Notes under the pieces: generated by a model
The model's input: only the letters and a program-made list of their open reading frames with translations
The model's database searches: none
What the model was told of the DNA's origin: nothing
Program-made: the position numbers and the translations under genes
Assembly: GCF_003336805.1 (NCBI RefSeq)
Contig: NZ_QFWJ01000013.1
Location: 1 to 64,000, forward strand
Length of the DNA stretch: 64,000 nt
Direction of reading: 5' to 3'
Origin: Marinospirillum perlucidum
GTDB lineage: Bacteria; Pseudomonadota; Gammaproteobacteria; Pseudomonadales; Halomonadaceae
Shown: positions 18,604 through 21,356 of the stretch, in pieces
How the letters are laid out: every line of letters begins with the position of its first letter
Position numbering within the stretch: the stretch's first letter is position 1

Positions 18604-20496
18604 TCACTTTTCCAGCAGTTTGGCCTGAAGTTGAGCCAGATCATAGCTACCCAAGTCTTCGCCATGGCGTGTTCTTAAGGCAACACTACCTGACTCGACT
18701 TCCTTATCGCCAACAACCAGCAGATAAGGAACCTTGGCTAGGGTATGTTCTCGGATTTTAAAGCCTATTTTCTCATTTCTCAAGTCGGTTTCCACCCGGA
18801 TACCACTTGCATGCAGCTTTTCAGCCAATTCCTTGACGTAGTCAGCCTGTTTATCCGTGATATTGAGAATAACAGCCTGAACCGGAGCCAACCAAGCGGG
18901 GAGGTCGCCGGCGTAGTGCTCGATCAGGATGCCGATGAAACGTTCAAAAGAGCCCAGGATCGCCCGGTGCAGCATTACCGGTGTTTTACGGCTGCCATCT
19001 TCAGCAACATAATGGGCGTTGAGGCGTCCTGGGAGTACGAAGTCCAGCTGCAGCGTACCACACTGCCAGACACGGCCCAGGCAATCTCTCAAGGAGAATT
19101 CGATTTTAGGGCCGTAGAAGGCGCCTTCACCAGGCTGTAGATCCCAGTCCTTGCCGATCTTGTTGAGGGCGTGCTCCAGGGCGTGTTCTGCCTTGTCCCA
19201 GAGTTCATCTTCACCGATACGGCTTTCCGGACGGGTGGAGAGCTTGAGTTCCACATCTTCAAAGCCAAAGGCCTTGTAGACATCCAGGGTCAGTTGGATA
19301 AAGCGACTGGCTTCATCTTCCATCTGATCTTCAGTACAGAAGATATGGGCATCATCCTGGGTAAAGCCGCGTACACGCATCAAGCCGTGCAGGGAGCCGG
19401 ATGGCTCATTGCGGTGACAGGAGCCGAACTCGGCCATGCGCAGTGGCAGATCACGGTAGCTTTTTAGGCCCTGGTTAAAGATCTGCAGGTGGCAGGGGCA
19501 GTTCATGGGCTTGATGGCATAGTCACGATGCTCGGAAACCGTGGTGAACATGTTGCTGTGGTAATGCTCCCAATGCCCGGAACGCTCCCAGAGAACCCGG
19601 TCAACTACCTGGGGGGTTTTGACTTCTTCATAGCCGTTATCACGCAGGATACGACGCATGAAGCCTTCCAGGTTCTGATAAAGGGTCCAGCCGTTGGCAT
19701 GCCAGAAAACCATGCCCGGGGCCTCATCCTGGATATGGAAAAGGTCCATGCGCTTGGCCAATTTACGGTGATCGCGTTTTTCGGCTTCTTCCAGGCGGTG
19801 CAGGTAAGCCTTGAGTTCTTTCTTGTCACCCCAGCAGGTGCCATAGATGCGCTGCAGCATCTTGTTATTGGAGTCCCCGCGCCAGTAGGCACCGGAAACC
19901 CGCATGAGTTTAAAGGCCTTGATCTTGCCGGTGCTGGGTACATGAGGGCCGCGACAGAGATCGGTAAAATTGCCCTGACGATAGAGCGAGAGTTCTTCAT
20001 GGGCCGGAATATCACGAATAATCTCGGCCTTGTAGATTTCACCCTGTTCCTCGAAGAAGGGGATGGCTTCTTCGCGGGTCATGACCAGGCGTTCAACAGG
20101 GATATCCTGCTTGGCCAGTTTGTCCATCTGTTTTTCGATGGCCTGGAGATCTTCAGGGGTGAAGGCTTCGTCCACATCAAAATCATAGTAGAAGCCATCT
20201 TCGATGGTCGGGCCAATCGTGACTTGTGCCTCGGGGAAAAGATCTTTGACCGCCATGGCCATCAAGTGGGCGCAGGAGTGGCGTAGAATTTCCAGGCCTT
20301 CCTGATCGCGGGAGGTCACTATGGCAAGCTTGCAGTCCTGGTCTAAAAGATAGCTGGTGTCTACCAGGGTGCCGTCCACTTTGCCGGCCAGCGCCGCTTT
20401 GGCGAGGCCAGCGCCTATGGATTCAGCAACTTGGTGGACAGTAACCGACTGATCGTAGCTACGTTGACTTCCATCGGGGAGAGTAATGACAGGCAT
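18604..20496 (-). CDS. thrS: Threonyl-tRNA synthetase
   Basis: The 630-residue class II enzyme has an N-terminal TGS domain ([20 protein letters not shown]), the editing domain with the zinc-type [16 protein letters not shown] block (about 90-200), the catalytic core with [25 protein letters not shown] and [14 protein letters not shown], and a C-terminal anticodon-binding domain (about 530-630). It is the first gene of the operon. Its 5' leader carries two anticodon-like hairpins, described separately, that should mediate translational autorepression by ThrRS. Confidence 0.97.
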
Positions 20497-20503
20497 AATC
20501 TTT

Positions 20504-20619
20504 TCCTGAGCAGTGGTGTCCCTTACGAGAGGACACTTGGTTCAACTGGCTTGCTTTCTTTCTGGCAGAGGTGGCCACCAAACGAAGGTGACACTTTCCC
20601 CCAGCAGGCAGAAAGCAAG
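20504..20619 (-). promoter_or_regulatory. thrS mRNA leader operator mimicking tRNA-Thr anticodon arms
   Basis: Read on the minus strand. Distal arm (20619-20550): a 10-bp stem CTTGCTTTCT/AGAAAGCAAG closes an inner hairpin CACC/GGTG with the 7-nt loop UUCGUUU. Proximal arm (20536-20516): GUGUCCU/GGGACAC closes the 7-nt loop CUCGUAA. In both loops CGU occupies anticodon positions 34-36, with U at 33. The SD AGGA (20507-20504) follows the proximal arm by 8 nt and the ATG is 7 nt further on. This matches domains 4, 2 and 1 of the E. coli thrS operator, where ThrRS binds the two mimics and blocks ribosome entry. Confidence 0.8.
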
Positions 20620-20638
20620 TTTAAAAACGCGAAATGAT

Positions 20639-20660
20639 GACAGGCGACTGAGCGCCTGTC
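20639..20660 (-). terminator. Hairpin after purN (possible weak terminator)
   Basis: GACAGGCG and CGCCTGTC form a perfect 8-bp stem with a 6-nt loop, 18 bp beyond the purN stop on the minus strand. The nearest T run (GCGTTTTTAA) begins about 10 nt after the stem, so termination is plausible but not textbook. It would insulate thrS from purMN transcription. Confidence 0.45.
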
Positions 20661-20678
20661 CAGAAAAGTCATCTGATT

Positions 20679-21356
20679 TCAGGCTTCTTCCTGGTATAAA
20701 ACACCAGATTTAGGCAGCGGTTGGCCATCCAGTTCAGGCTGGTTGCCTTGCAGTTGTAAACGTCCTTGCAAAAACCAGCGAACCACGATGGGGTAGAGCA
20801 GATGCTCCTTGACCTGGACACGGCGCGCCAGGCTGGTTTCGTCGTCATCCACTTCAACCGGGACTCTGGCCTGAATAATCAGCGGGCCGCCATCCAGCTC
20901 TTCGGTTACAAAATGGATGCTGACACCATGTTCGCCATCACCGGCTTCCAAAACCCGACGATGGGTATGCAACCCCTTGTATTTGGGCAGCAGGGAAGGG
21001 TGGATATTGAGCAGCTTACCATGATAACGAATCACGAAATCAGGCGAGAGAATGCGCATAAATCCAGCGAGTACCACCAGGTCCGGCTGGTAGTCGTTCA
21101 GGAGCCGCAAAAGCGCCTGATCGTACTCCTGCCGGTTTTTATAGCTGGAAGCTGGCAGAACTTCCGTGGCAATACCTGCCTGTTGAGCCCGCTCAAGGCC
21201 ATAGGCATCAGGTTGATCACTAATGACCGCAGCGATCTGCCCGCCCAGCCCGGTTTCACTTGCCTGAGCATCGATCAAAGCCTGAAGGTTGCTGCCGTTA
21301 CCGGAAATCAGAACTACAACACGCCTTTCTTCTGCCGGTTCACCGCCATGCATCAT
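20679..21356 (-). CDS. purN: Phosphoribosylglycinamide formyltransferase (GART 1)
   Basis: The 225-residue enzyme transfers a formyl group from 10-formyl-THF to GAR, step 3 of purine synthesis. [18 protein letters not shown] is the N-terminal phosphoribosyl-binding loop. [16 protein letters not shown] contains the catalytic Asn-His block and [15 protein letters not shown] the catalytic Asp region. Its start overlaps the purM stop by 4 bp (ATGA), so translation is coupled. Confidence 0.96.

Follow-up and report, generated by a model that had tools for sequence, protein, structure and literature searches.

The leader of thrS in the window (the whole 64,000-nucleotide stretch analysed here) is very probably a translational operator that works like the one in Escherichia coli, through which threonyl-tRNA synthetase (ThrRS) would repress its own translation. 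We favour this reading because the visible parts of such an operator are present, except for its U-rich linker. tRNA mimicry has a textbook example in the E. coli thrS operator, which has four domains, with anticodon mimics in domains 2 and 4. The window leader contains two hairpins with anticodon-like loops, of which the one closest to the start codon belongs to a widely conserved element and the other to a genus-level structure.

The thrS leader and its two hairpins

The gene order on the minus strand is purN, a 182-nt gap, thrS and infC; thrS starts with the ATG at 20496 and its leader reads leftwards. The product matches NCBIfam TIGR00418 (747 bits) and aligns with E. coli ThrRS (1QF6) over residues 1–627, nearly the whole length. 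The C-terminal region is kept, and the residue aligned with E. coli R609, a contact in structure papers, is still an arginine (R608). Towards thrS, the gap holds a hairpin at the purN end, a distal arm, a 13-nt linker, a proximal hairpin, CACUG, CAGGA and the AUG, with the following features:

18604..20496, minus strand: thrS, threonyl-tRNA synthetase (630 aa), the gene under control; its product is the presumed repressor
20504..20508, minus strand: Shine–Dalgarno (SD)-like CAGGA between hairpin and AUG, assigned from sequence
20511..20515, minus strand: CACUG tail, adjoining the proximal stem on its 3′ side
20516..20536, minus strand: proximal anticodon-mimic hairpin (domain 2 type), GUGUCCU-CUCGUAA-GGGACAC, 7 bp with a 7-nt loop
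20523–20529, minus strand: proximal loop CUCGUAA, with U33
20525..20527, minus strand: proximal anticodon mimic CGU, positions 34–36
20537..20549, minus strand: linker between the arms, CCAGUUGAACCAA, 13 nt
20550..20619, minus strand: distal arm (domain 4-like) from predicted folds; 10-bp outer helix CUUGCUUUCU/AGAAAGCAAG, internal loops, inner hairpin
20574..20592, minus strand: distal inner hairpin GUCACC-UUCGUUU-GGUGGC
20580–20586, minus strand: distal loop UUCGUUU, with U33 and the mimic CGU at 20582–20584
20634..20662, minus strand: promoter-like TGGACA-17-CATCAT, a weak candidate (9 of 12 in a consensus scan only)

The first-pass annotation had described two 7-nt loops with U33 and CGU upstream of thrS, and both are there. 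It had also placed the proximal hairpin just before the SD, which agrees with the positions (20516–20536 against CAGGA at 20504–20508): the stem ends 7 nt upstream of CAGGA. A CA dinucleotide lies just 5′ of the same stem (20538–20539) and might pair with the CACUG tail, giving one C-G and one A-U pair at the base, around a 1 × 3 internal loop.

The predicted minimum-energy fold of the leader contains both hairpins (z −3.05 and −2.09), and predicted pair probabilities are near 1 throughout them with two exceptions: the U-G that closes the proximal loop has 0.48, and the distal hairpin has 0.77 at its outermost pair. These two are exactly the hairpins with a 7-nt loop and at least six pairs in the 182-nt purN–thrS gap. 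A single mimic hairpin is unremarkable on its own, because 13 occur on the two strands of the whole window among 460 7-nt-loop hairpins with stems of at least six pairs. Dinucleotide shuffles of the gap contained at least one NUNGUNN hairpin in 48 of 5,000 cases and two in none (0/5,000), and a chance origin of the pair was rejected on this count.

Transcription from the promoter-like sequence might begin just 5′ of the distal arm. This sequence overlaps the purN-end hairpin (20639–20661), which is GC-rich, reads GGACAGGCG...CGCCUGUC, is accompanied by only a weak U run and may mark the end of purN transcription just ahead of the thrS leader.

Conservation of the proximal hairpin

We located thrS in all 58 related genomes, a set to which the window's own belongs, in E. 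coli K-12 and at 80 loci of named genomes, and drew further leaders from class-level genomes. Among the first 142 leaders placed, 84 had at least five of seven stem pairs, an NNNGUNN loop and CACT; 56 of these, gap-free and excluding the window's genus and E. coli, form alignment A1, whose rows were thinned by hand to one per genus. All seven stem pairs show two-sided changes in A1. Two-sided change cells number 31 compared with 4.0 in shuffles, none of 500 shuffles reaches that value, and sliding the pairing partner abolishes the signal; the cells are not independent events, and the percentage of paired positions is biased upward by the preselection at five or more pairs.

Because A1 rows were chosen partly by pairing, we added a test blind to the stem, selecting leaders by NNNGUNN followed by seven bases and CACTG. 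By this rule, 81 of 140 distinct protein-found leaders qualify. Of their 567 pairs 540 form, whereas swapping the arms between leaders leaves a mean of 481.8 (s.d. 3.9, maximum 495, n = 1,000). At least six pairs form in 80 of the 81, the exception being L023, with a non-matching 5′ arm. The compensatory stem changes that the first-pass annotation expected in relatives are therefore borne out for this hairpin, with the two tests in agreement. It had anticipated good covariation for both arms; the evidence is strong and wide for the proximal one and thin for the distal one, where it comes from five of the eight genus members.

A covariance model built from A1 (R1; its E-values are rough, owing to a short calibration) recovers the window leader with 33.3 bits (E 2.7 × 10−7). 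It also recovers the known thrS operator of E. coli K-12 with 37.7 bits, though E. coli was absent from training. Matches occur in 50 of the 58 related genomes (which supply 30 of the 56 training rows) and in 132 of 370 sampled class genomes, with none in the other 238. In a draw from the whole phylum, 60 of 299 genomes match, and the label of each of the 60 places it in the same class or nearer. At the named loci, 35 of 80 match (26 of them training rows) and 45 do not; there is no match at any of the 16 betaproteobacterial loci or at three Legionella loci (L069, L078 and L092). The 60 best-match loci from related and class genomes (L147–L206) all lie upstream of thrS. For 57 of them the distance to the gene was computed, and is 151 nt at L190 and at most 32 nt at the rest; for L181, L182 and L192 the placement was read from the sequence record.

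By eye, four of the eight related genomes without an R1 match keep a diverged NGU hairpin (L014, L016, L025 and L139), one has a broken 5′ arm (L023), two have no hairpin that we could see (L115 and L120) and the leader of one could not be placed (L141). L023 belongs to G026, a member of the window's family, and shares an identical 200-nt leader with Halomonas sp. NO4 (L056), in keeping with the 'Oceanospirillales' named in the first-pass annotation, which was about right. In this leader the loop, 3′ arm and CACUG are intact and the 5′ arm has lost its pairing; far upstream stands a CCCTGGTATGGATCA stretch, as though moved by rearrangement.

Two further groups of leaders depart from the common form. 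Five loci of Methylophaga and Piscirickettsiaceae type (L037, L042, L045, L057 and L109) have UGU in a diverged hairpin that reads GGCC-(C)UUUGUAU(C)-GGCC, or a close variant of it, and bears a CACAACCA tail; R1 misses these hairpins, which are possibly a variant family. Paralogous thrS copies in four genomes (L142–L145, from G018, G052, G053 and G047) encode proteins 55–58% identical to the window ThrRS, and no such hairpin was found in their four leaders.

The loop obeys a simple rule. When the hairpin is located from stem and tail only, ignoring the loop, it is found in 106 of 170 distinct leaders, 105 with a 7-nt loop and one (L123) with an 8-nt loop, and G35-U36 is present in 105 of the 105 seven-base loops. 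Restricted to protein-found leaders, the count is 77 of 77 (the 78th leader has the 8-nt loop), with U33 in 72. The first-pass annotation had read the loops as conserved CGU: conservation holds, and the rule is N-G-U, position 34 being G in 37 of the 77, C in 30, A in 7 and U in 3. In an enlarged set G35-U36 occurs in 205 of 205 leaders, many of which were found with R1 and hence are not independent. In the CACTG frame, the dinucleotide at 35–36 is GU in 83 leaders, AU in 3, and CG, GG, UA and UU in one each. ThrRS reads G35 and U36 of tRNA-Thr anticodons and ignores base 34. Fixed G35-U36 with a free base 34 is what would be expected if the partner of the RNA reads in the same way, and the comparison shows natural leaders to follow, at the level of their sequences, the same G35-U36 rule as tRNA-Thr.

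The flanks of the stem recur as well. CCACTG is present in 193 of 205 located leaders, a share biased upward since the tail belonged to the locating rule, and CAA, CAT or CAC lies 5′ of the stem in 165 of 180. An outer helix below the CACUG tail exceeded permutation at one offset (23 of 180 versus 12.4 permuted; 0/300), with no other single offset clearly above it, and we do not claim a fixed class-wide outer helix.

The proximal hairpin has the features of the domain 2 type: its position at the SD, a match to R1, a loop with U33 and G35-U36, and a compensatory stem. We take it to be a conserved element of the same family as the proximal hairpin of the E. coli operator.

The distal arm and further candidate mimics

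The core of the distal hairpin, GUGUC(A/G)CC-NNNGUNN-GG(U/C)GGCC, is found once each in G000–G004, five of the eight genus members, always at thrS, and in none of G005–G007. Over 201 family genomes it is present in the five genus members and in G437, whose match was discarded as it lies in a 3-kb locus without thrS. Within the five, base 34, other loop bases and the outer stems vary while G35-U36 stays: G004 has a compensatory change from A-U to G-C, G003 has UGU for CGU, and the outer helix is CUUGCUUUCU/AGAAAGCAAG in the window and GGAUCGAUCC/GGAUCGAUCC in G003. Covariation in so small and thin a sample is suggestive. The inner hairpin is predicted to form with a probability near 1 in G000 and G001, 0.7–0.99 in G004, 0.7–0.85 in G002 and about 0.3 in G003; fold length matters little, G004 excepted. 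It is part of the minimum-energy fold in G000, G001 and G004, at one of three lengths in G002, and not in G003.

The sister species G005–G007 (L008–L010) lack the distal mimic and keep the proximal hairpin intact. In these, a similar upstream GGGAAA runs straight into GAACCAA, as if the distal mimic had been deleted. Because three of eight genus members are without it, the distal arm is not essential everywhere. We found no alignable relative of it outside the genus. The arm had been proposed to be E. coli domain 4 rebuilt; a second arm with an NGU loop is indeed present, but as judged from these comparisons it is a genus-level structure and not an alignable copy of domain 4.

Candidate additional mimics recur in the class. 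Among hairpins that precede the proximal one in the leader, GU occupies positions 35–36 in 19 of 69 with 7-nt loops, compared with a mean of 3.3 for each of the other 15 dinucleotides. A further mimic lies within 120 nt in 17 of 190 leaders, of which a few are expected by chance, by a 7-nt-loop rule that E. coli domain 4, with its 8-nt loop, escapes. Under a stricter rule, 93 leaders gave 11 GU loops, whereas 200 shuffles averaged 0.34 and never exceeded 3. Inspection gave three candidate mimics each in L027 (G043), L214 (G090), L040 and L296, and two in L117, L282, L225, L229 and L193. Those of L214 read CGU, GGU and CGU in a row, so that differing NGU triplets stand in one leader. Some of these candidates have a loop-closing mismatch, the predicted fold shrinks a mimic loop to five bases in L040 and L296, and the loops of L225 and L229 have G33 in both copies.

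Proposed mechanism, rival readings and known systems

In the mechanism we propose, the leader RNA would offer two imitations of the anticodon arm of tRNA-Thr. A free ThrRS dimer would bind both through its anticodon-binding domains, probably one per subunit, and ThrRS on the proximal hairpin would keep the 30S subunit from the start site. When uncharged tRNA-Thr rises, it would compete for ThrRS, the operator would be freed and more ThrRS would be made. The mechanism was established in E. coli, for which three papers (PMC11088916, PMC9976931 and PMC3858243) describe ThrRS binding two anticodon-like leader hairpins and excluding the 30S subunit, and a swap of the anticodon-like bases to those of methionine that brings the leader under MetRS control. 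Domain 4 is given as the second mimic recognized by ThrRS in PMC11088916, and PMC3858243 describes a U-rich element. In the E. coli operator a U-rich, single-stranded linker, domain 3, belongs to a bipartite ribosome site.

The window leader resembles this operator in its SD-proximal hairpin of 7 bp and 7 nt, with an NGU loop and a CACUG tail directly upstream of the thrS SD; base 34 is 33 nt from the AUG in E. coli and 31 nt in the window. Each also has another arm, longer and more distal, whose loop likewise contains NGU, and the two positions 34 lie 63 nt apart in E. coli and 57 nt apart in the window. The linker is 31 nt and U-rich in E. coli, whereas that of the window (CCAGUUGAACCAA) has 13 nt and is not U-rich. 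The distal arms are unrelated in sequence, the 7-nt UUCGUUU of the window facing an 8-nt loop with UGU in the predicted E. coli fold. We therefore take the window leader to be like the E. coli operator in its working, with the second site locally rebuilt; we do not class it as an exact copy because the U-rich linker was not found.

It is unlikely that regulation falls to the proximal hairpin alone, with the distal arm serving structure or mRNA stability and its CGU loop left as a relic or adding little. The loss of the distal mimic next to an intact proximal hairpin in G005–G007 is what such a division would predict, as is the distal inner hairpin of G003, predicted to form about 30% of the time, and so is the rarity of further mimics (just 17 of 190 leaders, by a count blind to E. 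coli domain 4). Against it, G35-U36 of the distal loop is kept in five of eight genus members while base 34, the loop and the outer stems change, distal hairpins of the class as a whole show an excess of GU loops, and the role reported for E. coli domain 4 in PMC11088916 is that of a second mimic recognized by ThrRS.

We consider it very improbable that the anticodon triplets are incidental and that the role of the hairpins lies in ribosome standby, in RNA stability or in binding another protein. The proximal hairpin adjoins the SD, where structure can directly affect initiation, and anticodon mimicry does not explain the widely recurring CACUG tail (its share being biased by the locating rule); yet any of the four bases may stand at position 34 beside an invariant G35-U36, and the strong R1 matches sit ahead of thrS. 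Of the weaker extra matches, seven were fetched (21–27 bits; L207–L210, L213, L217 and L218), and none holds thrS. Three of the seven, from the search of the relatives, have E < 0.01, where about 0.6 would nominally be expected in 58 genomes by these rough E-values, and the three sit within or opposite coding frames. Other genes under the same control were looked for among them and rejected: of the extras in G015, G051, G042 and G001 (21–24 bits, L207–L210), the first three lie within or opposite an ordinary coding frame, that of G324 (26.8 bits, L213) lies between two open reading frames both ending towards it, and those of G181 and G361 (L217 and L218) likewise lack thrS.

Least credible is a T-box or a peptide-coding attenuator sensing threonine. 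A T-box recognizes uncharged tRNA by a specifier that resembles a codon and acts by antitermination, and Bacillus thrS is controlled by T-box leaders; this precedent speaks for such a leader. In the window, however, tRNA is the only Rfam family at gathering score, and nothing credible, a T-box included, appears at relaxed score; neither the window leader nor the E. coli operator is credibly matched. The relaxed matches (SNORA48, Pinc and sR17) reach at most about one third of their gathering scores and were taken as chance. There is no terminator-like site in 20400–20900, and the two minus-strand open reading frames of at least 20 aa lying mostly in the gap (49 and 40 aa) contain one and two threonines and no threonine run. 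T-box leaders of Gram-positive thrS put the same gene under threonine tRNA supply, but a T-box RNA binds the tRNA, whereas the window RNA is an imitation of the anticodon to which the enzyme would bind. We know of no relation between the window RNA and the anticodon-like elements in yeast synthetase mRNAs. Those elements are eukaryotic, unlike the window; for AspRS, HisRS and ThrRS–RPC10, the synthetase is reported to recognize an anticodon-like loop in its own mRNA or in a different one (PMC9976931, PMC6542539 and PMC9956033). PMC3997798 mentions the thrS leader of B. subtilis.

Conserved autoregulation by ThrRS, as the first-pass annotation read it, is thus supported by the leader comparison. 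We found no survey of the thrS operator outside E. coli in the open-licence literature (most subscription papers fall outside it), and the spread of related switches with one to three mimics over many gammaproteobacteria is not described in Rfam or in the literature searched. The comparison yields R1 as a ready model for thrS operators. The two-site (dimer) question becomes directly testable on leaders that naturally hold one, two or three candidate mimics, and G005–G007 offer a natural one-site comparison, between sister species with and without the distal arm. We give roughly even weight to a broader proposal: the thrS operator would be an old gammaproteobacterial element, most fixed in its tRNA-Thr identity bases and CA...CACUG, in which the number of mimics (one to three) evolves freely. 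Mimics would be gained by tandem duplication of the domain 2 hairpin with its tail (L027, L040 and L117) or through an unrelated arm (the window's genus, E. coli and L013), and their loss in sister species would resemble a deletion; their number would then tune the cooperativity with which ThrRS senses its own excess.
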